Source: a virus. Taken from it: a stretch of 61,632 nucleotides of DNA. A program made the position numbers and the translations under genes. Under the pieces are notes generated by a model. That model worked only from the letters and a program-made list of their open reading frames with translations. It was not told where the DNA came from and did no database searches. Location: positions 1-61,632 of the IMG/VR virus record IMGVR_UViG_3300011116_000062; one strand, written 5' to 3'. Shown here one piece after another: positions 1 to 17,541 of the stretch. Position 1 is the first letter of the stretch. Each line of letters opens with the position of its first letter.

Positions 1-52
1 GCCTCCCCCTTTTTTTGTCCCCGCTTCGGCGGGGCCTATACCAGTTCCATAG

Positions 53-73
53 GTGTGTGCGCGCGTGCGCGTG
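53..73. other. Alternating purine-pyrimidine (Z-DNA-type) tract
   Basis: Twenty-one bases alternate strictly between G and T/C, ending in a CG-rich core. Such tracts can flip to Z-DNA under negative supercoiling. It lies just before the first palindrome. The role is unknown. Confidence 0.5.
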
Positions 74-104
74 GCTACATCGTTATAGTTTTGCTTAAAT
101 CATT

Positions 105-123
105 TTCTGGGATTTTCCCAGAA
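105..123. promoter_or_regulatory. Palindrome copy 1, TTCTGGGA-TTT-TCCCAGAA
   Basis: This is a perfect 8-3-8 inverted repeat and one of four copies in the window, all outside genes. It is probably the binding site of a dimeric regulator, or possibly an RNA hairpin. No clear promoter could be assigned to this copy. Confidence 0.75.
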
Positions 124-133
124 TCTCGCTGCA

Positions 134-150
134 ACCCTGCGTAGCAGGGT
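134..150. repeat. Inverted repeat ACCCTGC-GTA-GCAGGGT
   Basis: This is a perfect 7-3-7 inverted repeat 10 bases after palindrome copy 1, with the same arm-loop geometry but a different sequence. No T-run follows on either strand, so it is not a terminator. It could be a second operator. Confidence 0.55.
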
Positions 151-270
151 ACACCAATTCGTTTTGGCCGTCAACTGCCTGCCCCTTGTTCCAACTTCGT
201 AGATTCTGTTCCAAGTCGTTCCAACCGATTGGAACAAGTTTTTGCCATGTATATCAAGCACTTACGCGAC

Positions 271-300
271 TTGTTCCAATGTTCCAAGTTTTTTAGGGTA
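271..300. repeat. 30-bp inverted repeat, left arm
   Basis: This arm is the reverse complement of 391-420 with one mismatch. It contains two iterons and a run ending in TTTTTTAGGGTA. The arms are separated by 90 bases, so cruciform extrusion or a long RNA stem is possible. Confidence 0.8.
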
Positions 301-390
301 TACCTACCCCCGCATGGTAAAAAACTCGATCGGATGAGAAGGCAGCGCGGTGCGTCAACCCAAAATAAAAAAGTCACGGAGAACCCGCTC

Positions 391-420
391 TACCCTAAAA
401 AAGTTGGAACATTGGAACAA
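391..420. repeat. 30-bp inverted repeat, right arm
   Basis: This arm starts TACCCTAAAAAAG and contains the iterons at 404 and 412. It pairs with 271-300 with 29 of 30 matches. A pyrimidine-rich, AT-rich stretch follows immediately. Confidence 0.8.
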
Positions 421-676
421 CCTCATATTTTTTACTCTCTACTACTACTACTATATTATAAGTTCTTCTTCTTCTCTCTACTCTCTCACCTAGCAAAATC
501 AAGCACTTACTCAACCTACCCCGTCGCACCTTATACTATCAATGTGTCCACCTTCCCTATACTATCTGAGCCAGAGTACAACTTCGAAAACTGGAACATT
601 TGGAACAAATCCGCCCCGACTTGGAACAACCCCGAAACCGCTACACAAAAAGTGTACAATTATTTGTTCACAAGGT

Positions 677-705
677 TTGACATAGTACAAGAAACATGAG
701 ACAAT
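677..705 (+). promoter_or_regulatory. Early promoter 1 (TTGACA-N17-GACAAT)
   Basis: A perfect -35 (677-682), a 17-base spacer and a 4/6 -10 (700-705) face the first early gene. The expected start is near 712. Palindrome copy 2 begins 47 bases after the -10, inside the 5' leader. This suggests transcription by the host sigma70 polymerase, with regulation downstream of the start. Confidence 0.6.
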
Positions 706-752
706 ATCAGAATGAAAAAGCGTCCTGATTTAGCCAAGTGAGTGCAGAGCGG

Positions 753-771
753 TTCTGGGATTTTCCCAGAA
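753..771. promoter_or_regulatory. Palindrome copy 2, TTCTGGGA-TTT-TCCCAGAA
   Basis: This perfect 8-3-8 inverted repeat lies in the predicted leader of the first early operon, about 35 bases before its GGAGG ribosome site. It sits at roughly +41 from the predicted transcript start, the same geometry as copy 3. Confidence 0.8.
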
Positions 772-818
772 TCACAGAAAGTGCAGAGTCAGAAAGGTAA
801 CAACTGGAGGACATTGTT

Positions 819-1160
819 ATGAGCAAGAAGTGCAGCAACCGGGAAGCGCGAGGCCATGTTCAGAGCCGTACCCCGTTCACCGCGAACAACTTGTACGGAG
901 TGCGAGCAGGCACGAGCGAAGAACCCATGTACATTGTTTATTCCTACGGTGAGCATTGGCCGTTGTTCATCTACCACGAGCCGACAGACACATGGTTCGA
1001 AAACTCCGACAAGTACAGCGTGACCACGAGCAAGCACCGTTCGCAGTCGCACCCGCTGTGCGAGACCGTGAGCCGCCCGAAGCCGTTCATGCGTGACCTT
1101 GTGTATGTCGGTCTGGTCAAGGCGACATCGCTTGCGGGTAATGTGCGGGTGGCAGCATGA
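819..1160 (+). CDS. Small early phage protein, unknown function
   Basis: This 113-residue protein is the first gene of the early operon. GGAGG at 806-810 fixes the ATG. The leader CTGGAGGACATTGTTATG is almost the same as the one before the MoxR gene at 3820. The middle is aromatic-rich (YSYGEHWPLFIY) and is followed by a polar stretch with KYSVTTSKHRSQ. I recognise the type as a conserved phage hypothetical but know no function. Its position right after a strong promoter suggests very early expression, as for host-takeover proteins; that is inference. Confidence 0.85.
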   Translation: MSKKCSNREARGHVQSRTPFTANNLYGVRAGTSEEPMYIVYSYGEHWPLFIYHEPTDTWFENSDKYSVTTSKHRSQSHPLCETVSRPKPFMRDLVYVGLVKATSLAGNVRVAA

Positions 1161-1366
1161 GCCGGGAGGACTATGGCTGCATCAAGTGCGGCAAGCCGGT
1201 GAATCCTGCGAGATGGGAACTTGGTTACAACATCTGCATGAGCAGCGCGTGTGCCAGACCCGCTCCGGTACGCACCATCGTGCCGATGCACAAGAGCAAC
1301 TACATGGTCATCACCGACAAGCGTGACCTGATGGGTATTAACAATAAAGGAGGGTTCTACCGATGA
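1157..1366 (+). CDS. Small zinc-finger-like early protein
   Basis: This 69-residue protein starts in a 4-base ATGA overlap with the gene before, so the two are translationally coupled. A CxxC pair near the N-terminus (CIKCGK) and two later cysteines (CMSSAC) could bind one zinc ion. The remainder is basic with no domain I recognise. It may bind nucleic acid or protein in the host-takeover phase. Confidence 0.8.
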   Translation: MSREDYGCIKCGKPVNPARWELGYNICMSSACARPAPVRTIVPMHKSNYMVITDKRDLMGINNKGGFYR

Positions 1367-1530
1367 GCCATTGGAGAGAGATACAACACATCCCAGACTT
1401 CAACGGCAAAACCGTTGCCAACATCGAGTTTGACGGATACGAGCATTTCATCATCAAGTTCACCGATGGCACGCGGCTGCACATCCGCGAAATGCAACAG
1501 GCTGGACAAATTACTTGGGAGGGTAAGTGA
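1363..1530 (+). CDS. Small early protein (55 residues)
   Basis: The ATG overlaps the previous stop (ATGA) behind an AGGAGG site at about 1348-1354. The protein begins MSHWREIQHIPDF and ends QITWEGK. Its pattern of short strands (KTVANIEFDGYEHFIIKFTDGTR, broken here as VANIEFDGYEHF then IIKFTDGTR) suggests a small beta-sheet fold. The unbroken overlap chain with both neighbours is the main evidence that it is real. Function is unknown. Confidence 0.75.
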   Translation: MSHWREIQHIPDFNGKTVANIEFDGYEHFIIKFTDGTRLHIREMQQAGQITWEGK

Positions 1531-1531
1531 C

Positions 1532-1945
1532 ATGGCTAAGAAGAAGTACGCACGGAAGTGCAACGCTTGCGGCAAGGGCATGAACGAGGGGTACTGCGTC
1601 GAAAATGGTATGGAGTACTACTGTTCTGACGAGTGCCTCCACACGGAGATTACGCCCGAAGAGTGGCTTGAGTTGTACAACGATGGCGAGGGCGATTCGT
1701 ATTGGACTGACTGGAGCGAAGACCCCGACGAGTACCTTGATGATGAGGATGAGGATGAGGATGAGGATGAGGATAAGGGTAAGGATGAGGACGATTTGGT
1801 CGAAGCGTTGCAGGACACGGTAGCCAAGCAATCTCTGGTCATCAGAGATTTGATGGGCGAAGCAGACCGACTGCGTGAAGTAATAAACGCGCAGAACAAG
1901 GTCATTGAGACACTTACGCTGCTCAAGAAGCAGCAGGAGGTGTGA
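1532..1945 (+). CDS. Zinc-ribbon protein with polyacidic linker and coiled coil
   Basis: This 137-residue protein starts at the ATG at 1532, behind GGAGGG at 1518-1523; an upstream in-frame start would overlap the previous gene without a ribosome site. Residues about 10-36 hold a CxxC and a later CxxxC-type pair (CNACGK, CSDEC), a zinc-ribbon layout. An Asp/Glu tract near residues 65-85 is encoded by a GATGAG hexanucleotide repeat. The last 50 residues look like a coiled coil. Acidic phage proteins sometimes mimic DNA, but that role is only a guess. Confidence 0.85.
   Translation: MAKKKYARKCNACGKGMNEGYCVENGMEYYCSDECLHTEITPEEWLELYNDGEGDSYWTDWSEDPDEYLDDEDEDEDEDEDKGKDEDDLVEALQDTVAKQSLVIRDLMGEADRLREVINAQNKVIETLTLLKKQQEV
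1738..1790 (+). repeat. Hexanucleotide GATGAG repeat inside a gene
   Basis: Five or more near-perfect GATGAG units encode alternating Asp-Glu residues. Such repeats can change length by slippage without shifting frame, so the acidic tract may vary between relatives. Confidence 0.8.
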
Positions 1946-1946
1946 G

Positions 1947-2102
1947 ATGAAGATTCAATTGGACATCGAGGACATCGACGACCCGCTCTACGACGCTCTA
2001 CTAGAAACATTTCGCTACAAAGCGAAGATGATGGGACTTGATCCCGATGCGTACAGATACGGCGAGTGGGTTGTGTCGTGCAAAGCGGAGGACAAGGTAT
2101 GA
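1947..2102 (+). CDS. Small early protein (51 residues)
   Basis: The start is the ATG at 1947, just after an AGGAGG site that lies in the end of the upstream gene. The acidic N-terminus (MKIQLDIEDIDDP) is followed by an amphipathic stretch and GEWVVSCKAED. Its stop overlaps the start of the next gene. I do not recognise the family. Confidence 0.75.
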   Translation: MKIQLDIEDIDDPLYDALLETFRYKAKMMGLDPDAYRYGEWVVSCKAEDKV

Positions 2103-2245
2103 ACGATGCAGACCTGCGGATACTGGAGATGTACTACCAAGACGGCATGAAAGAGACGGAGATTGCAGAGTCTCTTGGGCTGTCGCTGCTCACCATCCAT
2201 GAGGTGTTGGCAGCGTGGGAAAACGGCGAGTACAAAACACGATAG
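2099..2245 (+). CDS. 48-residue helix-turn-helix protein
   Basis: The ATG lies in a 4-base overlap with the stop of the previous gene. Almost the whole protein is one HTH: LRILEMYYQDGMKETEIAES followed by LGLSLLTIHEVL, the pattern of sigma70 region 4 and many small regulators. It probably binds DNA alone or recruits RNA polymerase. It is a candidate reader of one of the palindromic sites near its operon, which is inference. It is easily missed because it is so short. Confidence 0.75.
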   Translation: MNDADLRILEMYYQDGMKETEIAESLGLSLLTIHEVLAAWENGEYKTR

Positions 2246-2255
2246 GAGGAGTGAG

Positions 2256-2420
2256 ATGGACAAGAAAGTAATCATCGAAGTCCGGGGTGGCATTCCCGAA
2301 ATCATCGAAGCACCGGACGGCGTGGATGTGGAGATACGGGACTACGACACCGAGTTCTACGAGGACGAGGACTTGCATGAGGACGACGAAGGCGAGAAGT
2401 ATTTCTTGAGGGAGGGTTGA
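2256..2420 (+). CDS. Small acidic early protein (54 residues)
   Basis: The ATG at 2256 follows AGGAGGAG. The N-terminal MDKKVIIEVRGGIPEII looks like two beta strands. The rest is strongly acidic (YDTEFYEDEDLHEDDEGEK). I recall similar short proteins in other phages, without a known function. Confidence 0.8.
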   Translation: MDKKVIIEVRGGIPEIIEAPDGVDVEIRDYDTEFYEDEDLHEDDEGEKYFLREG

Positions 2421-2422
2421 AC

Positions 2423-2611
2423 ATGGACTATTTATTTTCAATCGGTGACCGGGTGATGTGGAGCGGAGCATGGGGGACGAAAGCACCCCGTCCTGCACGG
2501 ATTGTCGGGCGTGGCGCGAAGAACAACGAGCCAGTCTACGACTTGGATAACGGCCATTGGGCATACGAGTACCAACTAGAAGCGACGGCTGATGCTGTCG
2601 AGGAGGAGTGA
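2423..2611 (+). CDS. Small SH3/KOW-like early protein (62 residues)
   Basis: The ATG at 2423 follows GGAGGG. The sequence SIGDRVMWSGAWG, then PARIVGRG, PVYDLDNGHW and a final YEYQLEA fits a small five-stranded barrel of the SH3/KOW/Tudor kind. Function is unknown. A second small protein of similar layout is in the late block at 46642-46812. Confidence 0.75.
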   Translation: MDYLFSIGDRVMWSGAWGTKAPRPARIVGRGAKNNEPVYDLDNGHWAYEYQLEATADAVEEE

Positions 2612-2612
2612 C

Positions 2613-2807
2613 ATGGAAGACGATATCGAGTGGTGGCGTAGTGAGGACAGCGACGACCGATGGATTGCTGAGCAAGTCCGTCAGTACGAACAACAGGCAT
2701 GGGAGGAAGAGCAAGCCGCCCGTGAGTTGGTAAAAAGTATTGACTCTGATGTCAAGATATCTTATACTATTCCTAAATGGGCGATCAGCCCGAGAGTTGA
2801 TGAGTAG
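2613..2807 (+). CDS. Small acidic helical early protein (64 residues)
   Basis: The start is the ATG at 2613 behind AGGAGGAG. The first 45 residues are charged and probably helical (EDDIEWWRSEDSDDRWIAEQ). The end of the gene contains the promoter for the next operon at 2740-2768, so the coding sequence and the promoter share bases. I do not recognise the family. Confidence 0.75.
   Translation: MEDDIEWWRSEDSDDRWIAEQVRQYEQQAWEEEQAARELVKSIDSDVKISYTIPKWAISPRVDE
2740..2768 (+). promoter_or_regulatory. Early promoter 2 (TTGACT-N17-TATACT)
   Basis: The -35 (2740-2745) and -10 (2763-2768) each match the sigma70 consensus at 5 of 6 bases with an ideal 17-base spacer. The promoter lies in the last codons of the upstream gene and faces 2859. 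Palindrome copy 3 begins 49 bases after the -10, as for promoter 1. Confidence 0.75.
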
Positions 2808-2817
2808 TGCAAACACA

Positions 2818-2836
2818 TTCTGGGAATTTCCCAGAA
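2818..2836. promoter_or_regulatory. Palindrome copy 3, TTCTGGGA-ATT-TCCCAGAA
   Basis: This perfect 8-3-8 inverted repeat extends to 10 bp arms with the flanking A and T. It sits between promoter 2 and the gene at 2859. It may control the MoxR/VWA operon together with the first early operon. Confidence 0.8.
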
Positions 2837-2858
2837 TCAACCTGAGAGGTACAGAGTT

Positions 2859-3770
2859 ATGAGCGTTGAGACTGACAAGTTGTTGAAGAAGCCGAACCAT
2901 GTCATCTCCCTCGCTACGTCTGCCATGTTGGTCGATGCGCGGGTGACGGTGTGGACTGGCACGAAGCAGGACAGCGAGATAAGCGAGGAGGTCACGACTG
3001 CCAAGAAAGCAGAGCGTGACTCGGGCAAGTTCGTGAAGCACTTGCTTGCGAATTGTCCAGAGCATAAGCGTTGCATGAACTACCGCCAGATTGTCTACAA
3101 CTGGATGCAGCGGCGTTCGTATGACTGGGCGGGATCGCTACGCTTGCTACCTGTCGTGGACTACCCGAAGTTCATGGCTGAGTACACGCAACATGAGAAG
3201 ACGTTCTACGAGTTGGTGGACACGTTCATCCAAGCGTACCCGACCATCGTGAGTAACCGTGCGTTCGCCTTGGGTGACATGTTCGACAGGAACGACTACC
3301 CCGACCCAGCGGAAGTGCGTAGCAAGTTCACGATTAACTTGTACCGCTCAGAAGTGCCGACCGGGGATTACCGGGTGGCTATCGCGCAGGATGCCGTCGA
3401 TGACTTGGCGGTGACCTACGAGCGACAGGCACGGAGTCTGGTCGAGACGGTGCTGACTCAGCAGAAGGATCAGTTGGTGGACATCATGAAGACACTTGCT
3501 GAGAACTGTGCTGTGGAGACTATCAGCGAGAACGGTGAGTTGAAGGTCAAGCGGAAGAAACTGTACGAGTCTACGCTCACACGAGCGCAGGAACTATGCG
3601 AGACCTTCCGTGACTTCAACATCACACGAGATAACGAGTTGGAGACTGTGCGTACAGAGTTGGCACGAGTTGTGGGTGGGCTGACCATCGACAAGTTGCG
3701 CGACAGCGATACCACACGCACCGTCGTGCATGAGGAGTTGACCGACATCCTGAAGAAGTTCGGTCTGTAA
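2859..3770 (+). CDS. DUF3150-like protein of the MoxR/VWA cassette
   Basis: This 303-residue protein is the first gene behind promoter 2. It is mostly helical and lacks catalytic motifs that I can see; the middle has NLYRSEVPTGDYRVAIAQDA and long charged helices follow. DUF3150 proteins typically sit next to a MoxR ATPase and a VWA protein in phages and plasmids, and that is the gene order here. It may be the substrate adaptor or effector of the ATPase. The family name is from memory and should be tested by profile search. Confidence 0.8.
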   Translation: MSVETDKLLKKPNHVISLATSAMLVDARVTVWTGTKQDSEISEEVTTAKKAERDSGKFVKHLLANCPEHKRCMNYRQIVYNWMQRRSYDWAGSLRLLPVVDYPKFMAEYTQHEKTFYELVDTFIQAYPTIVSNRAFALGDMFDRNDYPDPAEVRSKFTINLYRSEVPTGDYRVAIAQDAVDDLAVTYERQARSLVETVLTQQKDQLVDIMKTLAENCAVETISENGELKVKRKKLYESTLTRAQELCETFRDFNITRDNELETVRTELARVVGGLTIDKLRDSDTTRTVVHEELTDILKKFGL

Positions 3771-3819
3771 GGTAAGTGTGTTTCCGTACATAGAGTAACT
3801 ACATCTGGAGGATATTGTT

Positions 3820-4929
3820 ATGGCTATTCAGTTCATCGAGCCGTGGAGCATCAACGACCTGCGTAAGTCTGTGCCGTTGTATGCGGAGGAGTTGACCATC
3901 ATCGCCATGGGTGAGCCGGGTGTCGGCAAGTCGAGCGTGTTGAGCGGCATCGCTGAGGACATGGGTGACAAGTGGCGCAAGGTTGGCGATGGCTATCCTG
4001 ATGACAAGTACGACTACATCTATGTTGACTGCGCGGTGCGTGACCTTGGCGATACCGTGATGAGCGTACCGGACAACGAGCGCACCCGACTCATGCAGTT
4101 GGTGTCTGACTTGTTCAGGTTGGACAGTCCGAAGCCGAAGGTCATCATGCTTGACGAGTTCATGAAGACTCCGAAGTTGCTGCAAGCAATGTGGACACGG
4201 CTCATGCTTGAGCGTTGCGTAGGTGATACTCCGCTGCCCGAAGGTAGCATGGTGTTTGCTACGAGTAACAACGAGAGCGACGGAGTAGGCGATACTCAGT
4301 TGGCACACTCTGGCAATCGCACGATGCGTGTCCGTATCCGCAAGCCGAACGCTAACGAGTGGCTGACATGGGCGGGTAATAACAACATACCTACCGTGAT
4401 CCGTGCATGGGTTGCTATGAACCCGTCTGCACTCGCGTCTTACCTTGATGGTGGACAGGACGATAATCCGTACATCTTCAATCCCAGTAAGCGTGAGTTG
4501 TCGTTCGTATCTCCTCGCAGTCTCGCCAAGTCTAGCGTGGTGGTGCGTAACCGTGAGAAGGCAGGTGACCGGGTGACGGAGACGGCACTCGCAGGTGTCA
4601 TCGGTGCAGCAGCAGCCAAGGACATGACTGTCTTCATGAAGTTGGAGCGCGACTTGATTCCGGTGAGCAAGGTCATCGCAGACCCGACAGGTGTCCCGCT
4701 TCCTGATAACAAGTCTGCCGTGTTCCTCATGACATTCAACGCCATCGACACCATCGAGACGCAGGATGACCTGAGCAGTTTCATGCAGTTCATCGAGCGC
4801 GTGAAGTCCGTCGAGATTGAGTCGCTGTTCTTCACCATGTGTATGCAGAGTAAGCGTGTGGTGCGACTTGCCAAGAACAACAAGCGCATCATGGAGTGGG
4901 CCAAGGACAACTACGAGTTGCTTGTTTAA
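3820..4929 (+). CDS. MoxR-type AAA+ ATPase
   Basis: This 369-residue ATPase has Walker A at residues 31-39 (GEPGVGKSS), Walker B at 108-114 (VIMLDEF) and sensor 1 near 146-151 (FATSNN). MoxR ATPases act as chaperones that activate or insert cofactors into a partner, usually with a VWA protein, and the partner gene follows 11 bases later. The start is the ATG behind CTGGAGGATATTGTTATG. A phage role may be in virion assembly, host takeover or defence evasion; none is shown by the sequence. Confidence 0.92.
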   Translation: MAIQFIEPWSINDLRKSVPLYAEELTIIAMGEPGVGKSSVLSGIAEDMGDKWRKVGDGYPDDKYDYIYVDCAVRDLGDTVMSVPDNERTRLMQLVSDLFRLDSPKPKVIMLDEFMKTPKLLQAMWTRLMLERCVGDTPLPEGSMVFATSNNESDGVGDTQLAHSGNRTMRVRIRKPNANEWLTWAGNNNIPTVIRAWVAMNPSALASYLDGGQDDNPYIFNPSKRELSFVSPRSLAKSSVVVRNREKAGDRVTETALAGVIGAAAAKDMTVFMKLERDLIPVSKVIADPTGVPLPDNKSAVFLMTFNAIDTIETQDDLSSFMQFIERVKSVEIESLFFTMCMQSKRVVRLAKNNKRIMEWAKDNYELLV

Positions 4930-4940
4930 TCGGAGGAGTT

Positions 4941-6137
4941 ATGAGCGCAGTAAGAAAGTATGACGCAGAGTTCGAACTCAAGAGAGCGCACGTTGATTTG
5001 CTCAAGCATCGTGAGACCTGCCAGTACGCGGGAATCATCATGATGGGCGAGAGCAGCGTGGTGCATGATGCCAAGGCATGTAGGACTGCCTACACAGATG
5101 GTATCAACAAGCGTTATGGGGCGGCTTTCATGGAGACGCTGACTCGACCGCAGGTCGCAGGACTTGTGCTGCACGAGAACTTCCATGTGTTGCTCAAGCA
5201 CCTGCCACGCCATCGTGACCTGATGAAGAAGAACGCGAGACTTGCCAACGTGGCGATGGACTACGTTGTGAATGACATGATCCATGAGATTAAAGACAAG
5301 TCCGTCGTGCAGTTGCCGCCCGGTGCGCTGTATCACCCGATGTTTGCCGGGTGGTCTGTGCGTCAGGTGTACGACTACCTTGAGAAGGACATGGAGAAGA
5401 ACGGTGGCGGTGGCATGGGTGAGGGTGAGCCGCTAGATGAGCATGACTTCGATGCCGTCGAGGAGATGACACCGGAGGAGTTGAAGGAACACGATGAAAA
5501 AGTACAAGAGGCCATCCATCAAGGCGGGATGTTGGCGGGCAAGTTCGGTAACAAATTGCCACGACAAATTACTGACCTGATGAAGCCGGAGATTGACTGG
5601 GCTGAAGTCCTGCGCGACTTCTGGACTAGTGCGATGCGAGGCTATGACGAGTACACCTACGCACGCATGAACCGTCGTAGGTTGGCAGATGATTTGTACC
5701 TACCAACGATGTATTCCGAAAGGATCGGGCGCGTCGTGTTGGCTATCGACACATCCGGCAGTATCGGACAGGAGCAGTTGAATCTTGTGGCATCCCAAAT
5801 CATCCAGTTGTGCGACACCATGCCGCCCGATGAGATTGTGGTGCTGTGGTGGGATACCGAGGTACGTGGTAAGCAAGTCTTTACCGATAGCAACTACGCT
5901 AGTCTCGCTACGCTTCTCAAACCTGCCGGAGGCGGTGGTACGAGGGCATCGTGTGTCAGCCAATACATGAACAAGCACAGCATGACCGCTGATTGCGTGA
6001 TCGTGTTCACCGATGGACACATCGAGTGTGACGTTGATTGGAAGGTGACATCACCTACGCTGTGGCTCATTGACAGGCATGGTCACAGTAACTTCAAGCC
6101 GCCTGTGGGTACTCAGAAAGTCAAGGTCAACAAGTAA
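4941..6137 (+). CDS. Metallopeptidase/VWA protein (DUF2201 type)
   Basis: This 398-residue protein has an HExxH-like zinc site at residues 78-82 (HENFH) in the N-terminal half. A Glu/Asp/Gly-rich linker spans about 150-190. A VWA domain follows, with the MIDAS motif DTSGS at 270-274. This two-domain layout is typical of DUF2201 proteins that pair with MoxR ATPases. The ATG at 4941 is chosen because GGAGGAG lies just before it; earlier in-frame starts lie inside the ATPase gene. It probably forms a complex with the ATPase and processes or remodels an unknown target. Confidence 0.92.
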   Translation: MSAVRKYDAEFELKRAHVDLLKHRETCQYAGIIMMGESSVVHDAKACRTAYTDGINKRYGAAFMETLTRPQVAGLVLHENFHVLLKHLPRHRDLMKKNARLANVAMDYVVNDMIHEIKDKSVVQLPPGALYHPMFAGWSVRQVYDYLEKDMEKNGGGGMGEGEPLDEHDFDAVEEMTPEELKEHDEKVQEAIHQGGMLAGKFGNKLPRQITDLMKPEIDWAEVLRDFWTSAMRGYDEYTYARMNRRRLADDLYLPTMYSERIGRVVLAIDTSGSIGQEQLNLVASQIIQLCDTMPPDEIVVLWWDTEVRGKQVFTDSNYASLATLLKPAGGGGTRASCVSQYMNKHSMTADCVIVFTDGHIECDVDWKVTSPTLWLIDRHGHSNFKPPVGTQKVKVNK

Positions 6138-6148
6138 GGAGATATGTT

Positions 6149-7198
6149 ATGAATATCAATGCACAGTCCGCTCCCCCATTTTTCTTGACCGATGTATATG
6201 ACGATGTTACCAAGAAAGATGTGATGTCTAGCCGGTTCTGGCCGATTATCGTGGCATCAATCAACCACATCAAAGACTCGACAGATTCATTGGTGGTCGG
6301 TGGGATTGAGCGGTTCCCGGACAGCAGTGTAATCAAATCGGTAACGCTGACTAACCGTGCCGGATTGAATGTTGTAAGCATGTACGCAGACTCGACTGAC
6401 CCCAAATCCACTATCCACTTTGGTGGGGTGTACGAGGCTACCCGTCAAAACGGGCACAACAACATTCATGTCTCAGTCAAGAGCAACAACGTCAAATACA
6501 TCATCCGCAAGATTAAAGACCCGCAGGGAGATCCGATCAACACGCTGAATAACAGATGGGCTGAGGCTAAAAATTACTTCGCAGAGCAGGTGTCTGCCTT
6601 AATCAGTCGTGGGCTTCGTAACGGCGGTGCGTTGGGTTCCGAGATACGAATCACGCTCAATCAAGATGCGGTCACGGCTCTGGCAAAAGTTCACATGGGC
6701 AGCATGAACAAGATAGACATGCCAGATTTTGTTCTAGCGCACATCGAATCACAGTATCGGATGTACCTTGATAAGCAGAAGAAGGCGTTGACCTGCGCCG
6801 AGGATATCAAGCAGATGTTCGGTAACGATAAGTGGGTGCTGCTCAGCGATATGAGTAGCGGTGCTGTCGTTGTGGGAGCCATAAGCAGGCAACCGTTGAT
6901 GGATGCCGTGGACATCTTCATCAAGACCGGCGAGTTGCTTAGCACACACAAGTTCAAATACATCAATGCTGTCGTTCCGATTAAGCGATACAAGTCGTTC
7001 AACGATGTCGATGAAGATATCCGGCGGGACATCGAGATGCAGTTGACCATGTTGAAGTTACATACCAAGTCAGATGGGCCGCTTTTACCGACCTCCGACA
7101 GTATGGAGCGTGGTGAGCATGTCTACACAGACTTGGGCGCGATGACCTCCGGTTCGTACATGACCTCGCCCTTTATTATCGTGGACAAAACCATATGA
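6149..7198 (+). CDS. Unknown protein after the MoxR/VWA cassette
   Basis: This 349-residue protein starts 11 bases after the VWA gene behind AAGGAGATAT. It has mixed alpha/beta content and no signal peptide or membrane segment. I see no catalytic motif. The spacing suggests it is co-transcribed with the cassette and may be its fourth component. Its stop overlaps the next start. Confidence 0.85.
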   Translation: MNINAQSAPPFFLTDVYDDVTKKDVMSSRFWPIIVASINHIKDSTDSLVVGGIERFPDSSVIKSVTLTNRAGLNVVSMYADSTDPKSTIHFGGVYEATRQNGHNNIHVSVKSNNVKYIIRKIKDPQGDPINTLNNRWAEAKNYFAEQVSALISRGLRNGGALGSEIRITLNQDAVTALAKVHMGSMNKIDMPDFVLAHIESQYRMYLDKQKKALTCAEDIKQMFGNDKWVLLSDMSSGAVVVGAISRQPLMDAVDIFIKTGELLSTHKFKYINAVVPIKRYKSFNDVDEDIRRDIEMQLTMLKLHTKSDGPLLPTSDSMERGEHVYTDLGAMTSGSYMTSPFIIVDKTI

Positions 7199-7587
7199 GT
7201 AAATTGGAGTTACATGTTCCGGTGGATGGCGCGAGATATTACTTACCGGTGCGCTTGGGCAGCAAGACCGTAACTGTGTGGGTAGCAGAAAACTATTGTA
7301 GGTATTTCGCACGTAGCGAGTTACCGGACTGGCTCAGACAACGCTTAACCATGATCATGGCATGTGATAACAAGCATCTATCCACGAGGGACAAGATGGA
7401 CTACGCCGTCGCGCCGAACGGGATAGTGCTGCGCTCCGTGTACGAGTCGAGCAAGCGTGAATGTCCTGAAGGGTTCGAAGACATAGGGTGGCGTGTGAAT
7501 GACAAATACTTTTACGTGGTGACAGATAGTACCTATGTAGATGAGTTGAAGGTTGGTGCTGAACGTGTAACGGAGAAACTGCGATGA
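7195..7587 (+). CDS. Unknown small protein (130 residues)
   Basis: It starts in an ATGA overlap with the gene before. It looks like an alpha/beta protein with a strand-rich start (LELHVPVDGARYYLPVRL) and a helical middle (LPDWLRQRLTMIMA). The family is not recognised. It also overlaps the nuclease gene that follows by 4 bases. Confidence 0.8.
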   Translation: MSKLELHVPVDGARYYLPVRLGSKTVTVWVAENYCRYFARSELPDWLRQRLTMIMACDNKHLSTRDKMDYAVAPNGIVLRSVYESSKRECPEGFEDIGWRVNDKYFYVVTDSTYVDELKVGAERVTEKLR

Positions 7588-7871
7588 CTCCAGAGGGCAA
7601 AGTCAAAGCGAAGGTCAAGAAAGTTCTTGCGGAGGTAGGCGCGTACTACGCCATGCCGATGGGAACTGGTATGGGTTCTTCTGGCGTCCCAGATTTTTTA
7701 GTTTGTAAAGGAGGGTTGTTCTATGGTATAGAGTGTAAGGCAAATGGCAATAAACCAACTGCGCTTCAAGAAGCGAACCTGAAACGCATACGCGAAGCCG
7801 GTGGGATTGCGCTAGTGATTGATGAAACCAATGTTGATAATTTGAAACAGGAGATGTGTTGTGAAAGATAA
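7584..7871 (+). CDS. VRR-NUC family nuclease
   Basis: This 95-residue protein matches the small phage form of the VRR-NUC branch of PD-(D/E)XK nucleases. The core PDFLV (near residue 34), GIECKA (near 48) and a following Q in ALQEANL supply the D, ExK and Q active-site residues. Members of this family cut branched DNA such as Holliday junctions. In this phage it could resolve replication intermediates before packaging. The length is normal for single-domain members. Confidence 0.9.
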   Translation: MTPEGKVKAKVKKVLAEVGAYYAMPMGTGMGSSGVPDFLVCKGGLFYGIECKANGNKPTALQEANLKRIREAGGIALVIDETNVDNLKQEMCCER

Positions 7872-8277
7872 GACTACGAAAGCCGCTAAGATTCTTGCTC
7901 TTACTGAGAAGGGTGGGTCAGTCAAAGATATCGCCAAGGCTGTGAAGTGCGATGATGCCTACGTGTACTACGTGCGTTGGATGAATAAGAACAAGAAGAA
8001 AAAGCCGTCGAAGATTATTACGGCGGTGAAACAGATGAAACAAGCGTTGGATTCTATCGAGAAGAAGCCCGACCTCGTGAATCACCCGCCGCACTACACA
8101 GACGGCGGCGTTGATACGTTGACCTACATCGAAGCCAAGGACTTGAACTATCGACTCGGCAACGTGGTGAAGTACGTCAGCCGTTGCGGTAAGAAGTTGA
8201 ATTCAGATCCGTTGCAGGACTTGATGAAGGCTCGCTTCTATCTTCAGCGTGAGATTGACATTCGGAGAGAAGCGTAA
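7861..8277 (+). CDS. DUF3310 protein with N-terminal HTH
   Basis: This 138-residue protein uses a GTG start behind CAGGAG, inside the end of the nuclease gene (11-base overlap). The N-terminus has an HTH-like segment (SVKDIAKAVKCDDAYVYYVR). The C-terminal half is the DUF3310 signature: NHPPHYTDGG, then LGNVVKYVSRCGKK and DLMKARFYLQREI. DUF3310 proteins are common in phages and often labelled nucleotide kinase, with no P-loop and no firm evidence. The added HTH suggests DNA contact. Confidence 0.9.
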   Translation: MKDKTTKAAKILALTEKGGSVKDIAKAVKCDDAYVYYVRWMNKNKKKKPSKIITAVKQMKQALDSIEKKPDLVNHPPHYTDGGVDTLTYIEAKDLNYRLGNVVKYVSRCGKKLNSDPLQDLMKARFYLQREIDIRREA

Positions 8278-8393
8278 TGTTCCGGGCCATCAGATGGTGG
8301 TGGCTTAGACACAAAGCCGATGTCATACGGGAGTGGGGGCGCGTCCCCCCTCCCAACTGGCGTTGTTCACGAGGAGGGAGGGAATACTGGTGA
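8277..8393 (+). CDS. Tiny basic protein (38 residues)
   Basis: The ATG overlaps the previous stop behind GGAGAG. The product begins MFRAIRWWWLRHK and is very basic with five tryptophans in all. The stop overlaps the next GTG start. The perfect coupling on both sides supports a real gene, but it is so short that a leader-peptide role is also possible. Confidence 0.55.
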   Translation: MFRAIRWWWLRHKADVIREWGRVPPPNWRCSRGGREYW

Positions 8394-8617
8394 ACAGCAA
8401 AGACGAAGACGAAGCCTTTGAAATCGAGATGTCGGCACACCCTTGGGGGTACGGACAGCAACGTAAAGAAGACTTTGAATTCGCCATGGCTGCTATCCGT
8501 ATGCATGGACTCTGGAATGAAGCGTTGGTAATCATGAATGAGATTCAACGACTCAAGGCTGAACTAGAAGAAGCGAGGAAAAAATCGTGCCCCACGAATA
8601 CATCAAAGACAGACTGA
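8390..8617 (+). CDS. Small early protein (75 residues)
   Basis: The GTG at 8390 is preferred because GAGGAGGGAGGG lies just upstream and it overlaps the previous stop. The protein is acidic at the N-terminus and has a helical end (EIQRLKAELEEARKK). It overlaps the next gene by 31 bases in another frame. Function is unknown. Confidence 0.7.
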   Translation: MNSKDEDEAFEIEMSAHPWGYGQQRKEDFEFAMAAIRMHGLWNEALVIMNEIQRLKAELEEARKKSCPTNTSKTD

Positions 8618-10069: not shown

Positions 10070-10070
10070 G

Positions 10071-10678: not shown

Positions 10679-10687
10679 GGAGGTGTT

Positions 10688-12547
10688 ATGAGTTTCGTGA
10701 CGCTCGATTTCGAGACGTACTACGCCAAGGACTTCTCTCTGTCCAAGATGACTACCGAGGAGTACATCCGCGATCCTAGGTTTGAAGTTATTGGTGTCAG
10801 CATCAAGGTCGATGATGACATCCCCGAATGGATCACAGGGCCGAAAGATTTCATCAAGGCTAAGTTGGACAGGATCGATTGGGCTAACTCAGCGGTGCTG
10901 TGTCACAACACACAGTTCGATGGGGCCATCCTTGCATGGCACTTCGGAATAGTGCCTTCGTATTACTTCGATACGCTTTGCATGGCGAGAGCCGTACATG
11001 GTGTGGAAGCGGGTGGGTCGCTCAAGGCTTTGGCCGAGCGGTATCGGTTAGGCGAGAAAGGTACCGAGGTCATCAATGCTCTGGGCAAGTACCGCAAGGA
11101 CTTCACTAATAGTGAACTTGCCGACTACGGCGAATACTGCTGTAACGATGTCGCTCTGACATTCAAATTATTCAACGTGTTGATGTCGGACTACTTCCCA
11201 CAGTCGGAACTAGACCTGATCGACATGACGTTGCGTATGTACACACAGCCGGTGCTGCAAGTGAACGATGCTTTGCTCATCGAGAGATTGGAGGAGATTA
11301 AGCAAGAGAAGACAGAACTCCTGCACAGTCTCAAGGCCAATCTCAAGTGCGAAACTGAAGAAGATGTACGCAAGAAGTTGGCAAGCAACCCGCAATTCGC
11401 TCAGGTGTTGATTGACCACGGCGTTGAGCCGCCCAAGAAAGTAAGTCTTACCACAGGTAAGGAAACGTGGGCGTTGGCTAAGAACGACGAGGGGTTTATC
11501 GCGTTATCGGAACACGATAATCCCTTTATCCAACAACTATGCGCGGTTCGTTTGGGTACTAAGTCCACCATCGAGGAGTCGCGTATCGAGCGGTTCATCA
11601 GCATCGGTTCTCGCAATCGAGGTCGGCTCCCTATCCCGTTGAAATACTACGGCGCACATACTGGGCGTTGGGCCGGGTCTGACTCGGTAAACTTCCAGAA
11701 CTTGCCTAGCCGGGATAAAAAGAAGAAGACGCTGAAGAACTCAGTCTCCGCCCCCGATGGTCAAATGGTAATTAACTGTGACTCATCACAGATTGAAGCG
11801 CGTGTGCTGGCGTGGCTTGCCGGTCAAGATGATGTAACTGAGCAGTTCCGCAAGGGAGACGATGTGTACAGCATCTTCGCTACCAAGATTTACAAGCAGC
11901 CCATCAGCAAGGCCAACCCTGTCGAACGCTTCGTCGGCAAGACCTGCATCCTCGGACTGGGTTACGGGACTGGCGCTGCCAAGTTACGTCACACGCTAAA
12001 GACTCAGCCGCCGGGCGCAGACTTACCTGAAGATGAGTGCAAGCGCATCGTGGACCTGTATCGCAACACCAACGACAAGATCGTTGAATTATGGCGCGAG
12101 TGTGATTATGCATTAAATTGCATAATGTCTTGGCCTGAAGGCAAGAAGCCTTTCTATCTCGGTGCGCGTAAGTGCGTGACGATTGACAGCAAGGGGGTGC
12201 GCCTACCCAATGGCCTATACATCCGCTACCCCAACCTGCGGGTTGAGGACGACAAGACTGTCTATGATTCTCGTAAAGGAACCGTGTCGATTTGGGGCGG
12301 GGCCATGGTTGAGAACGTGGTACAGGCACTTGCAAGAATCATAGTCGGTGAACAAATGCTGAACATGCGTGACACTTACCGACCCGTCCTGACAGTCCAT
12401 GACGCAGCGGTGGTTGTTACTCACAAGGAGAAGAAGGACGAGGCGCTTGCGTTTATAACACAAGTAATGTCTACTCCTCCTGAATGGGCAGCAGGTTTGC
12501 CGGTCGCTTGCGAAGCCAAGTACGGCGAGTCCTATGGAGAATGTTAG
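10688..12547 (+). CDS. Family A DNA polymerase with 3'-5' exonuclease
   Basis: This 619-residue enzyme copies the phage genome. The exonuclease begins at the N-terminus with DFET (residues 7-10). Polymerase motif A is DSSQIE at 365-370. Motif B runs from R414 through K418 to Y426. Motif C is HDA at 571-573, where the usual family sequence is HDE. The length fits phage enzymes lacking a 5' nuclease domain. GGAGG just before the ATG fixes the start. The enzyme works with the primase-helicase at 17542 and the probable SSB at 16286. Confidence 0.95.
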   Translation: MSFVTLDFETYYAKDFSLSKMTTEEYIRDPRFEVIGVSIKVDDDIPEWITGPKDFIKAKLDRIDWANSAVLCHNTQFDGAILAWHFGIVPSYYFDTLCMARAVHGVEAGGSLKALAERYRLGEKGTEVINALGKYRKDFTNSELADYGEYCCNDVALTFKLFNVLMSDYFPQSELDLIDMTLRMYTQPVLQVNDALLIERLEEIKQEKTELLHSLKANLKCETEEDVRKKLASNPQFAQVLIDHGVEPPKKVSLTTGKETWALAKNDEGFIALSEHDNPFIQQLCAVRLGTKSTIEESRIERFISIGSRNRGRLPIPLKYYGAHTGRWAGSDSVNFQNLPSRDKKKKTLKNSVSAPDGQMVINCDSSQIEARVLAWLAGQDDVTEQFRKGDDVYSIFATKIYKQPISKANPVERFVGKTCILGLGYGTGAAKLRHTLKTQPPGADLPEDECKRIVDLYRNTNDKIVELWRECDYALNCIMSWPEGKKPFYLGARKCVTIDSKGVRLPNGLYIRYPNLRVEDDKTVYDSRKGTVSIWGGAMVENVVQALARIIVGEQMLNMRDTYRPVLTVHDAAVVVTHKEKKDEALAFITQVMSTPPEWAAGLPVACEAKYGESYGEC

Positions 12548-12549
12548 TT

Positions 12550-13544: not shown

Positions 13545-13547
13545 GTT

Positions 13548-14269: not shown

Positions 14270-15880
14270 ATGGAAATCGTTGAAAACACGCTTTTAAAAG
14301 TCACGGTTCCTTACAGTATTGCTGATTCAGCGATACAGTCGATTGAGAAGTGCGAACTGCTTGCAGAGTACGGCACCAACAGGCAGGTCGCTGTTTACTG
14401 GGGCCACGACGAGGCTGAGCGTCTCGCGCAAATCTTTGATGCAGGACAGCCCAACCCGAAGATTCCCGATGTGCCGTCACCTATCTTCCGTGACTACAAC
14501 TGGCCGGGAATCCACACACCGTTCAAGCACCAGAGGGACACAGCGTCCTTCCTCTCGCTACGACATCGCGCGTTCTGCTTCAACGAAGCAGGTACGGGTA
14601 AGACCTCCGCAGCAATCTGGGCCGCTGACTACCTCATGAATCTGGGGTTAGTCAAGAAAGCCCTCGTTATCTGTCCGCTATCAATCATGCAGTCCGCATG
14701 GCAAGCAGACATCTTCAAGACAGCAATGCACAGGACATGTGGGATTGCTCACGGGACAAGCCTCAAGCGTAAAAAAATCCTTGGTGAGAACTTTGATTTC
14801 ACCATCATCAACTACGACGGCACCCATGTCGTGTTTAAGGAATTGCAGGAAGCGCGGTTCGACCTGATCATCATTGATGAAGCCAACGCCTACAAGACCT
14901 CGACGACCCGACGTTGGAAGACCTTGGCTAAATTGATTACGCCAAGTACTCGGCTCTGGATGATGACGGGTACACCTGCATCGCAGTCGCCTGTCGATGC
15001 GTTCGGTCTGGCTAAACTTATCTCGCCACAGCGAGTGCCGAAGTTCTCCGGTGCATGGCGCGACAAGGTGATGTACCAACTGACCCGCTTCAAGTGGGCA
15101 CCGAAGGTCACCGCACAGCAAGAAGTTCATAGTGCCTTGCAACCTGCAATCAGGTTTACCAAGCGGGAGTGTCTGGATCTACCGGACGTTACATATCAGA
15201 CTCGTGAAGTACCTATGAGCCCGCAAGCAGCGAAGTTCTATAAAGAACTAAAGCAGCAAATGTTAATTGAAGCTGCTGGCGAACAGATCAGCGCAGTCAA
15301 CGCTGCGGCATCTCTCACTAAACTTTTACAGATCAGCGGCGGCGCTGCCTATACCGACAAGCATCAAGTCATCGAGTTTGACATCAAGCCAAGGCTTAGC
15401 GAACTCAAAGATGTGCTTGACGAAACGTCAAACAAGGTTGTAGTATTCGTTCCGTACATACACACAATTGATGTGGTCTGTAAATTCTTAGTTTCGGAGG
15501 GTGTTAGCAACGAGGTGATACAAGGCTCGGTCGCACCGCGTAGAAGAGCAGAGATCATATCTTTGTTCCAGACCGCAGAAGACCCGCGAGTGCTTGTGAT
15601 TCAGCCTCAATCAGCAGCGCACGGTATCACGCTGACTGCCGCAGACACGATTGTGTTCTGGTCTCCGGTGATGTCAGTCGAGACATACCTGCAATGTATC
15701 GGGCGGATTGATCGTGTAGGACAGCAGAACAAGATGACGGTTGTGCATCTCCAAGGCTCAGACGTAGAGCGGCGGATGTACAACCTGCTACAGGGCAAAG
15801 TAGATAGCCATCAGAAGTTGGTGGATCTCTACAAGCAAGAGTTGGGTGAAACAAACGATGAAGAAGTGGAGGATGTATGA
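14270..15880 (+). CDS. SNF2-type superfamily 2 helicase
   Basis: This 536-residue ATPase has Walker A at residues 105-112 (NEAGTGKT), a DExx box DEAN at 203-206, and the C-terminal arginine-finger motif Q475-CIGRIDRVGQ. These mark SNF2/SWI2 DNA translocases, which in phages remodel replication forks or strip proteins from DNA. There is no N- or C-terminal extra domain. The last codons overlap the next gene by 4 bases. Confidence 0.93.
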   Translation: MEIVENTLLKVTVPYSIADSAIQSIEKCELLAEYGTNRQVAVYWGHDEAERLAQIFDAGQPNPKIPDVPSPIFRDYNWPGIHTPFKHQRDTASFLSLRHRAFCFNEAGTGKTSAAIWAADYLMNLGLVKKALVICPLSIMQSAWQADIFKTAMHRTCGIAHGTSLKRKKILGENFDFTIINYDGTHVVFKELQEARFDLIIIDEANAYKTSTTRRWKTLAKLITPSTRLWMMTGTPASQSPVDAFGLAKLISPQRVPKFSGAWRDKVMYQLTRFKWAPKVTAQQEVHSALQPAIRFTKRECLDLPDVTYQTREVPMSPQAAKFYKELKQQMLIEAAGEQISAVNAAASLTKLLQISGGAAYTDKHQVIEFDIKPRLSELKDVLDETSNKVVVFVPYIHTIDVVCKFLVSEGVSNEVIQGSVAPRRRAEIISLFQTAEDPRVLVIQPQSAAHGITLTAADTIVFWSPVMSVETYLQCIGRIDRVGQQNKMTVVHLQGSDVERRMYNLLQGKVDSHQKLVDLYKQELGETNDEEVEDV

Positions 15881-16278
15881 GTTCGGTTAACACAGAGGAA
15901 TTGGTTGAAGCCTACATCGCGCTTCGTACTGAACGTGATTTGCTTCTCCGCGAGTATGAAGCCAAAGATGAAGTGTTGAAGGAGCAGATGTCTAAGTTGG
16001 AGGCCGCACTCCTCGATGTCTGCAACACCATCAACGCTGACAGTATCAAGACTAGTCATGGCACGGTGATGCGTAAGTTGAATGAACGCTTCTTCTGTCA
16101 AGACTGGGATAACTTCTATAACTTTGTTCTGAGCAACGAGGCTCCGCATCTGCTTGAGCGGCGCATCCATCAGAGCAACTTCAGGGAATTTTTGAATAGT
16201 CATGTCGCTGACGGGTTACCCCCCGGCATCAACGTGATGCGTGAATACGGCGTTTCAGTACGTAAAGCCAGCAAGTGA
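15877..16278 (+). CDS. Conserved protein between helicase and SSB-like gene
   Basis: This 133-residue protein starts in an ATGA overlap with the helicase. Residues 5-60 are a coiled coil. The second half (SHGTVMRKLNERFFCQDWD, then HQSNFREFLNSH) is more conserved-looking, and I recall it as a phage protein found beside ssDNA-binding proteins. It may be a mediator or inhibitor acting at the fork. A Gam-like role was considered but cannot be supported. Confidence 0.8.
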   Translation: MSSVNTEELVEAYIALRTERDLLLREYEAKDEVLKEQMSKLEAALLDVCNTINADSIKTSHGTVMRKLNERFFCQDWDNFYNFVLSNEAPHLLERRIHQSNFREFLNSHVADGLPPGINVMREYGVSVRKASK

Positions 16279-16285
16279 GGTTTGT

Positions 16286-17152
16286 ATGAGCAACGATATC
16301 ATTGCAAGTTTGAAGAACGAACTCGCCATCTCAGGTGGCGTTGACGATGACACCCGTGCAGTAGCCGGTGGCGGCGGTGGCGGTGGAATCAAGCGCATCT
16401 CCATCAAGGGTGGCGTGTTCCGCAAGTACGCAGGTGGCAAGGAGATTGGTGCCATCGAAGACCGGCACATGAACGTCATCTTCGTGAAGATGGCCCACAA
16501 CCCGAGCCGTACTTATTACTCTGGGTCGTACAAGGAAGGCGAGAAGACTTCGCCTATCTGTTGGTCATCCGATTCCAAGACCCCCGACGCAGAGGTCAAG
16601 AACCCACAGGCTTCCGCGTGTGAGAAGTGCCAATGGTCTGTGAAGGGCAGCGGTCAGGGCGGCAGCGGCACCGGGTGCCGTCTCTCGTGGAGAACTGCTG
16701 TTGTTCTTCCGCAGGATCCGGGCGGTGATGTGATGCAGTTGTCACTCCCCGCTACGTCTGCCTTCGGTAAGGAAGAGGGTGGCAAGTGGCCGTTCCGTCC
16801 CTACATTCAGATGCTTGCTAACAACAACATCTCGGCGGGTCGTGTCATCACCAAGATGCAGTTCGACACCAAGTCGCCTGTGCCGAAGTTGTTGTTCTCG
16901 CCTGTTGCTCCGGTTCCTCAAGAGGATGTAGATACCGTCCTGCGCCAGAAGGAGTCGAACGCGGCTGAGATGGCTGTCAAGATGACGGTGTTTCAGGCTG
17001 ACGAAAACGGCAACGGGTCGAGCAGCGCGAAGGAATCTGACGGTGAAGTCGAGGTTGCTCAGCCCATCCTGCGCGAGTCTGCTAAGAAGACGGAGGCGGC
17101 TGCTCCTGCGGCAGATGTCTCTGACATCGTAAAGAAGTGGTCTAAGAAGTAA
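16286..17152 (+). CDS. Probable single-stranded-DNA-binding protein
   Basis: This 288-residue protein starts at the ATG at 16286; upstream in-frame starts lie within the previous gene. A Gly-rich stretch at about 27-34 precedes strand-rich sequence (GGIKRISIKGGVFRKY). Four cysteines at 92, 112, 115 and 131 could bind zinc. The C-terminus is Ala/Glu-rich and ends DIVKKWSKK. Position between helicase and primase, and similarity in layout to remembered phage SSBs, support the call. The tail lacks the acidic tip of classic SSBs. Confidence 0.65.
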   Translation: MSNDIIASLKNELAISGGVDDDTRAVAGGGGGGGIKRISIKGGVFRKYAGGKEIGAIEDRHMNVIFVKMAHNPSRTYYSGSYKEGEKTSPICWSSDSKTPDAEVKNPQASACEKCQWSVKGSGQGGSGTGCRLSWRTAVVLPQDPGGDVMQLSLPATSAFGKEEGGKWPFRPYIQMLANNNISAGRVITKMQFDTKSPVPKLLFSPVAPVPQEDVDTVLRQKESNAAEMAVKMTVFQADENGNGSSSAKESDGEVEVAQPILRESAKKTEAAAPAADVSDIVKKWSKK

Positions 17153-17161
17153 GGAGTCGAT

Positions 17162-17473
17162 ATGCCTCGTTCATACGACTACAAGTTCCTTTTGCAACTG
17201 CAAAAGTCAGACCCTACCCGCTTGGGGGTGAAACTTGGCCGCGTGTGCGTCGAGGCTAACCTTCCTGCGGCTTACGTGGCTAAAGTTCTTGAGACTTCCC
17301 GCACCACGGTTTACTCGTGGTTCCGAGGTCAGGGCGTACGCGAAGAGCGTAGGGCCAGAGTAGAGACGTTCATTGATCTGGTTGAGAGAGACATGAAAGA
17401 AGGAGTCCTTCCTGCCTCGACCATACTCGATGCGAAACTCTACTTGCGAGAACTTAGCGGAGGTCTGGTTTGA
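17162..17473 (+). CDS. Helix-turn-helix DNA-binding protein
   Basis: This 103-residue protein has an HTH at about 38-60 (AAYVAKVLETSRTTVYSWFR), followed by a helical tail. The strong recognition helix suggests sequence-specific binding. It sits just before a terminator, and a partial inverted repeat TTGAC-N11-GTCAA (17470-17490) overlaps its stop. It may control the operon junction or the palindromes in the control region. It lacks the extra domains of a classical lysogeny repressor. Confidence 0.82.
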   Translation: MPRSYDYKFLLQLQKSDPTRLGVKLGRVCVEANLPAAYVAKVLETSRTTVYSWFRGQGVREERRARVETFIDLVERDMKEGVLPASTILDAKLYLRELSGGLV

Positions 17474-17490: not shown

Positions 17491-17498
17491 TGACTGTT

Positions 17499-17527: not shown

Positions 17528-17541
17528 ATCTGTGGGCGGTC

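Follow-up and report, generated by a model that had tools for sequence, protein, structure and literature searches.

A box array between divergent gene blocks as the probable replication origin of a tailed phage, with a primase-polymerase–DUF927 helicase as its candidate reader

The 61,632-base phage record IMGVR_UViG_3300011116_000062, from a water-borne bacterial virus, was analysed over its whole length, which is called the window here. The array of short boxes at 188-627 is likely to be the replication origin of this phage, read by the phage's own primase-helicase, PriHel; we read it as an origin that would work like the SaPI type, placed in a tailed phage. The iteron-type origin proposed by the first-pass annotation is supported by a place and layout that are kept while the box changes, by an initiator-type helicase, and by a link, seen among close relatives, between the C-terminus of that helicase and the box. 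An iteron origin with a self-loading DUF927 helicase is known already. Judging from the sequences, what appears to be new is that a tailed phage has DUF927 fused to a primase-polymerase, that the layout persists while the box varies, and that a trinucleotide tract is present. A literature search at the level of titles and abstract openings found no description of such an array. A widespread, mostly uncultured phage group gains a concrete candidate origin and initiator.

The heptamer GTTCCAA occurs, on either strand, at 188, 208, 218, 229(-), 273, 281, 404(-), 412(-), 600(-) and 621(-). The motif count confirms the ten exact GTTCCAA/TTGGAAC copies reported earlier, and an eleventh copy, the six-base TGGAAC, lies at 592-597. 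The other 61 kb of the genome hold 9 copies against a shuffle mean of 7.7, which is the chance level, and the maximum in any 441 bp of 60 Markov simulations was 2. Copies on the plus strand lie to the left and those on the minus strand to the right, except for the single minus copy at 229; many relatives likewise have plus copies with a single minus copy about 42 bp further along. The palindrome previously noted was also found, the copies at 218 and 229 forming GTTCCAACCGATTGGAAC, as was the AT- and pyrimidine-rich stretch (420-480, with 72% A+T and 75% pyrimidine). Agreement of the spacings with the helical repeat, another early claim, holds for steps of 20, 10 and 21 bp and fails for the doublets 273/281 and 404/412, which are only 8 bp apart. 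The inverted 30-nt arms 271-300/391-420 are 97% complementary, and the tract that follows them at 430-480 is a probable unwinding element. Two mechanical open reading frames, 68 and 156 aa long, run through the region, and the relatives' habit of keeping the spacing while the box changes speaks against a coding role.

Table 1. Coordinates of the array parts and of the genes and sites discussed.
Feature	Position	Strand	Remarks
Left outer box cluster	188..235	.	GTTCCAA 188+, 208+, 218+; TTGGAAC 229-; 218-235 is an 18-bp palindrome
ATCAAGCACTTAC element, left copy	253..265	+	18-nt direct repeat 253-270/498-515, 89%
Left inner doublet GTTCCAATGTTCCAA	273..287	+	8 bp start to start; inside inverted arm 271-300
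Centre between inverted 30-nt arms	301..390	.	inner boxes 124 bp apart; 300-390 is 48% A+T
Right inner doublet TTGGAACATTGGAAC	404..418	-	faces left doublet; inside inverted arm 391-420
AT-/pyrimidine-rich tract	430..480	.	15-nt CTA run and TTC run; after right doublet
ATCAAGCACTTAC element, right copy	498..510	+	repeat of copy at 253
Right outer box cluster	592..627	-	TGGAAC 592-597; TTGGAAC 600-606, 621-627
Promoter-like site TTGACA-17-GACAAT	677..705	+	right of array, facing early genes; consensus match only
Family A DNA polymerase	10688..12547	+	protein family scan
SNF2-type helicase, replication module	14270..15880	+	protein family scan
Conserved 303-aa protein	16241..17152	+	backbone control; single-strand-binding role guessed
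Helix-turn-helix protein, 103 aa, phrog_664	17162..17473	+	adjoins PriHel; second-choice box reader
PriHel, 941 aa	17542..20367	+	open frame from 17497; proposed initiator

The array sits between two divergent gene blocks, the main plus-strand block at 819-20554 and a minus-strand block running from 61392 back to 20551. Where the genes were found in relatives, their order is terminase, p231, array, p303, ATPase, VWA protein, polymerase, SNF2 helicase, SSB-like protein and PriHel, with the helix-turn-helix (HTH) gene directly preceding PriHel. In all 9 long records, the raw cumulative GC skew reaches its minimum no more than about 3 kb from the array (for G020 and G023, from a substitute position taken 2 kb upstream of p303); after detrending, the minima lie up to 4.0 kb from it. 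A skew sign change far from the array, named at the outset as an observation that would count against an origin, was not seen, the minimum being near the array; the maximum, however, falls where the gene direction changes, so skew cannot separate replication from transcription and does not discriminate. Compared with relative G025, about 0.78 kb seems to be absent at the junction of the window ends 1/61632, and the record may therefore be no closed circle.

Scans of the window against Rfam (at gathering scores) and for tRNAs gave no match, and no DNA similarity to cultured phages was found for 1-20000 in 'near' mode or for 1-2500 in 'distant' mode. Among the 21 of 75 window reading frames scanned, there was no DnaA and no match to a Rep_3-type initiator with two winged-helix domains. 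Iteron arrays also function in plasmid partition and copy control, and if the phage were plasmid-like, the boxes could on that ground be its partition or incompatibility site; the same 21 of 75 frames gave no hit to a partition or integration family at E 0.001 or better, and we give this reading almost no credence. In passing, the highest G+C of the 1-kb steps (66%) falls at 40001-41000, where many short repeats, for example CGGGTCC, lie inside a 602-aa frame (39843-41651). The proteins p303, the ATPase and a VWA/DUF2201 protein (2859-6137) each occur in 27 of 28 relatives, and a 69-aa zinc-finger-like protein with cysteine pairs (1157-1366) and a core such as MHKSNY or MNKSNY occurs in 24 of 28.

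A location between divergent blocks would also suit an operator array, with a phage regulator such as the HTH protein at 17162-17473 binding the boxes and controlling divergent early and late transcription. Two promoter-like sites were found, against 1.0 expected in shuffles, at 677-705 and at 431-459 inside the tract, and the HTH protein is present in 24 of 24 relatives in which PolA was found. The boxes nevertheless end about 50 bp before the better of these sites, and long-spaced inward doublets, trinucleotide tracts and, in some relatives, DnaA boxes are features of origins. The HTH protein, moreover, is not associated with box type (partial r 0.00 across 36 genomes and 0.10 across 21; same-box effect -0.008), and the dispersed palindrome TTCTGGGA-N3-TCCCAGAA is a better operator candidate. 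An operator role for the boxes is consequently judged improbable, and the origin reading is kept.

The palindrome itself occurs in the window at 105-123, 753-771, 2818-2836 and 61545-61563, against a chance expectation near zero, and three of these four copies lie shortly upstream of gene starts. Among relatives, 5 copies were found in G025, 3 in G010 and 1 in the fragment G028. A second dispersed palindrome, TCCTGACA-N0..2-TGTCAGGA, is present in 6-7 copies each in G001, G014, G015 and G024 (TTGTACG-type and related records); many copies lie near the array, and it is perhaps a lineage-specific operator.

The array was followed through relatives at two levels. Scans of IMG/VR with the ATPase gene (3820-4929) and the terminase gene returned at least 80 loci each. 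Clusters of at least six GTTCCA within 480 nt occur in 39 of 161 sequences, counting the matches listed and the window (31 distinct), and many of these clusters share the same spacing pattern; loci that have no such cluster may be fragments or carry another box. In addition, the records of 28 relatives and the array regions of 18 more were fetched. Of 46 records, the window included, 42 carry an array in the corresponding position, 40 of them having an exact box upstream of p303 and two (G020 and G054) being recognised by eye and kept outside the counts of the trinucleotide, layout and DnaA-box tests. Of the four regions that have no array, G028 starts downstream of the site, G023 and G059 reach less than 2 kb upstream of p303, and G056 showed none in the 5.7 kb examined upstream of p303.

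The frequent heptamer at this place differs by record and lineage. Among the 40 arrays, TTGTTCCA is the box in 15 (the window and G016 included), AATTCCA in 11, TTGTTCTA in 8 and TTGTACG in 3, and TTGTGCC, TTGTGCA and TTGTTCC are found in one record each. The boxes were hand-picked from k-mer lists, two other heptamers outnumbering TTGTGCC in G017 and others being tied in G024. The layout is kept across these types: both inward-facing inner doublets are present in 31 of 39 arrays (G016, a copy of G005, was dropped), although doublets are easier to find in the 17 records that were searched with a five-letter core. Their median spacing is 124 bp (10th-90th percentile 112-173), with another box between the doublets in 10 of the 39. 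The element of the ATCAAGCACTTAC type, written as A[TA]CAANN[AG]CTTA, is found on the plus strand in 27 of 39 arrays; the rest of the fetched regions, 154,520 nt searched on either strand, has a single match.

A packaging site, where the terminase would start at the repeats, is another conceivable use of such an array, given that the genes of the terminase large subunit and of the 231-aa neighbour (60697-61392) adjoin it where both were found. Box type is not positively linked to either protein (in 21 genomes, partial r is 0.01 for the terminase and -0.15 for the neighbour), and the doublet and tract of the distant phage RHph_TM3_14A lie about 7 kb from its terminase gene. Packaging is thus a very unlikely explanation, and the array is treated below as an origin.

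The first-pass annotation had called for a search for an initiator, and PriHel, with a predicted fold like that of SaPI Rep and SCCmec Cch, emerged as the candidate reader. Its sequence matches Pfam DUF927 (E 1.3e-24) and NCBIfam SCCmet_Cch1 (E 1.3e-11, at 43.7 bits against a cut-off of 700). In a model built from 34 sequences (mean pLDDT 83, pTM 0.51), residues 1-199 match primase-polymerases (S-2L PrimPol, Z 18.6), and residues 348-940 align with SCCmec Cch, the best structural match (Z 31.9, 483 aligned, spanning 364-940), and with SaPIbov1 Rep (Z 27.0, 469 aligned), both over nearly their whole length. The P4 alpha protein was not among the structure matches listed for PriHel. The C-terminal domain, residues 822-941, was also modelled alone (pLDDT 87) and contains a helix at 887-896. 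Its best matches are 5dgk 438-556 (Z 9.9) and 8tch 452-561 (Z 9.0), which are the C-terminal domains of Cch and SaPIbov1 Rep, followed by a next match at Z 7.5. This likeness rests on the VIA alignment, Foldseek alone giving no match at E below 0.1 (5dgk, E 0.13). PriHel is the best candidate reader of the boxes, and helix 887-896 is its predicted recognition helix. The gene lies about 17 kb from the array and in the same order in relatives where both were found.

The association between box type and protein was measured in several ways, which differ in weight. Across 17 genes in 21 genomes, a set outside which many small genes remain, the partial correlation with box type is highest for PriHel (0.42; next 0.26). 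By segment, it is 0.44 for residues 741-840, 0.36 for 841-941 and 0.33 for 1-300. In 36 genomes, the stretches 741-840 and 881-940 reach 0.40 and the helicase part 0.37. This 36-genome test was run without G016 and G028 (copies of G005 and G000), G011, G025 and G027 (PriHel not found), G018 (no array region), and G020, G023, G054, G056 and G059 (box unassigned at that time). Over 629 pairs from 36 genomes, the same-box effect is +0.029 for residues 841-941, and other segments give +0.018 (301-450), +0.025 (451-600) and +0.029 (741-840). For these pairs, G020 was assigned by eye to the TTGTACG type and G024 to the TTGTTCC type, G063 was left out, and one of 630 pairs (G014/G024) was dropped at an identity of at least 97%.

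Pairs were also matched by their identity in PriHel 1-740 and SSB, the backbone, G024 being left out here as well. At a backbone identity of 0.65-0.70, residues 841-941 are 0.48 identical in same-box pairs versus 0.36 in different-box pairs (19 and 13 pairs). At 0.70-0.76, the values are 0.68 versus 0.41 (22 and 3 pairs), and the pairs are not independent, since 15 of the 22 same-box pairs in this top bin fall within TTGTTCTA lineages and all three different-box pairs involve G030. Residues 601-740 and 741-840 show no same-box gap in pairs matched at 0.65-0.76. Below a backbone identity of 0.65, same-box and different-box pairs do not differ in residues 841-941: at 0.50-0.65, the values are 0.32 versus 0.31 for 841-941, 0.30 versus 0.30 for 876-906, 0.37 versus 0.31 for 741-840, and 0.53 versus 0.48 for 151-300. 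Some same-box pairs share only 28% identity in the PriHel C-terminus (G000/G006). The covariation of box and PriHel is therefore weak overall and not confined to the C-terminus in all tests; a joint change of box and C-terminus, as suggested by the sequences, is clear only between close genomes.

G014 and G024 are sister genomes, 98.9% identical over a 7.6-kb stretch running into the end of PriHel and 97.1% identical over the 4.8 kb that surround p303 and the ATPase. Between their PriHel proteins there are 11 residue differences, of which 7 lie at 878-896 and 6 in the predicted helix 887-896. In the left inner cluster, three TTGTACG of G014 correspond to two TTGTTCC and one TTGTTCT of G024. 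From the centre to the right, the two arrays are nearly identical; their left halves differ, and with them the boxes. The DNA beside the left cluster or doublet differs too, and the G014 array holds mixed boxes. Other patches of divergence exist between the two genomes, and the pair is therefore a strong hint and no proof. Natural pairs of this sort can be used to test how an initiator changes its target.

The HTH protein was considered as the reader in its own right, being conserved, adjoining PriHel and having weak matches to HTH families; its helix-turn-helix differs slightly between box classes. It was ranked second, as its identity has no link to box type. A different division of labour would have some other phage protein or a host protein read the boxes at the origin, with PriHel serving only as the replicative helicase. 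The distance of PriHel from the array, a box link that is not confined to the C-terminus, and DnaA boxes near 8 of 40 arrays would suit this arrangement, but PriHel has the strongest association among the genes tested. A host protein is moreover unlikely to be the sole reader, because the boxes differ between closely related backbones, as in G014/G024. A separate initiator is accordingly thought unlikely, and PriHel is retained as the proposed one.

The tract to the right of the inner doublets has a composition of its own. Perfect trinucleotide runs of at least 12 nt number 52 in the 1,417,944 nt of 29 records, and 21 of these are inside 25 arrays that total about 10.5 kb, less than 1% of the sequence; G020 adds two. 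Such a run is present inside 25 of 40 arrays and absent in 15, including all 8 of the TTGTTCTA type, and the window array holds two. In 22 of 39 arrays, a run follows the right inner box, and 20 of these 22 have the polarity of DnaA-trios, the trio motif being taken from PMC10797057 and widened here to 3'-[G/A]A[T/A]-5'. The CTA run of the window reads 3'-GAT-5' on the lower strand, as DnaA-trios do, and is a trinucleotide repeat in the same sense.

The perfect DnaA box TTATCCACA is found in 10 copies within 250 bp of arrays, spread over 8 of 40, with a single further copy in the remaining 145,833 nt of the fetched regions; one of 30 shuffled 9-mers was equally frequent near arrays (mean 0.6). 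Seven of the 8 arrays with a DnaA box are of the AATTCCA type. No DnaA box lies within 250 bp of the window array, which is among the 32 of 40 without one.

PriHel has relatives of 24-26% identity in two cultured phages, Rollin of Pseudomonas and RHph_TM3_14A of Rhizobium. In Rollin, 8 of 9 TATGCAA copies lie at 260-679, where two triplets face each other at a distance of about 224 bp. The only trinucleotide run of at least 12 nt in its 61,282 bases comes directly after the right box triplet; this AAT run has no trio polarity. A second Rollin repeat, CTACCTTTT, surrounds the box array with 9 copies at 1-497, and its tenth and last copy lies close to the opposite end of the record. In RHph_TM3_14A (48,890 of 60,889 bases examined), the only run of at least 12 nt comes directly after two AACATA boxes 8 bp apart, an array that is less certain because AACATA occurs 19 times in the examined stretch. 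The examined annotated stretches of four cultured or named phages list no origin.

By analogy, the tract could be a working counterpart of the DnaA-trio, in which case a viral initiator of the DUF927 kind, with no relation to DnaA, would contact one of its strands in three-base steps beside the boxes. The placement of the only run of Rollin, and of the only one in the TM3_14A stretch, directly after a box cluster points this way; the AAT run of Rollin without trio polarity and the 15 of 40 arrays without a run weaken the case, and the idea is a tentative one that we hold to be somewhat doubtful. If it were true, a similar strand-opening code would have arisen twice. Through the trinucleotide tract, the question of a common strand-opening code can be put to the test in a cultured phage.

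For the origin as a whole, we infer the steps of binding, loading, opening and priming as follows. The C-terminal winged-helix domain of PriHel would bind the boxes, and the inward-facing doublets would place one helicase hexamer on each side of the 124-bp centre, the two standing head to head as in the model for SaPI origins. Opening may begin in the AT- and pyrimidine-rich tract, which in many relatives consists of trinucleotide repeats. The fused primase-polymerase would then prime, and the family A polymerase of the phage would extend.

Among known systems, the RepA, TrfA and pi origins of iteron plasmids differ in having host DnaA boxes alongside, which the window array has not. The bacterial DnaA-trio and basal unwinding element is similar in its trinucleotide repeats beside boxes, with matching polarity in those 20 of 22 arrays; it is dissimilar in that the window array has no DnaA box and the run is missing from 15 of 40 arrays. 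In phage P4, whose origin comprises ori and crr, the alpha protein unites primase, helicase and C-terminal iteron-binding parts, and its helicase belongs to a different family from that of PriHel. In RepA of PLE, the Vibrio cholerae satellites, the DNA-binding domain and the origin covary and act as a module (PMC8263062); unlike PriHel, this protein has a RepA_N DNA-binding domain and its origin has three semi-palindromic iterons of about 30 bp (PMC8263062). Phages and satellites fight over such origins (PMC8263062), and this conflict is one possible reason for the turnover of boxes.

Fusions of a primase domain with DUF927 occur in mobile elements as the PrimQH family (PMC5862659), and PriHel, which joins a primase-polymerase to DUF927, is likened to them by description; the passages on them concern the proteins, not such origins (PMC5862659). 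SCCmec Cch is like PriHel both as its best structural match (Z 31.9) and through the SCCmet_Cch1 sequence match. Cch is not known to have a primase domain. It is a DUF927 relative of SaPIbov1 Rep, and until the work on Cch2 no origin had been identified in SCC elements (PMC7581432).

In the SaPI system, the C-terminal domain of Rep recognises iterons and the origins lie directly downstream of rep (PMC7581432), with repeats in opposite orientations directing two head-to-head hexamers (PMC9894130). Unlike SaPI Rep, the helicase of PriHel is fused to a primase-polymerase and belongs to a tailed phage that encodes a family A polymerase itself. The array at 188-627 is about 17 kb from PriHel instead of directly downstream of the initiator gene, and the tract lies outside the inner doublets, unlike that of SaPI origins. 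As the origin is not adjacent to the initiator gene, the phage is not classed as a SaPI-type replicon. The likeness to SaPI consists of the predicted DUF927-type initiator helicase fold of PriHel, its C-terminal domain included, and of the short repeats in opposite orientations that characterise the window array and 31 of 39 arrays.
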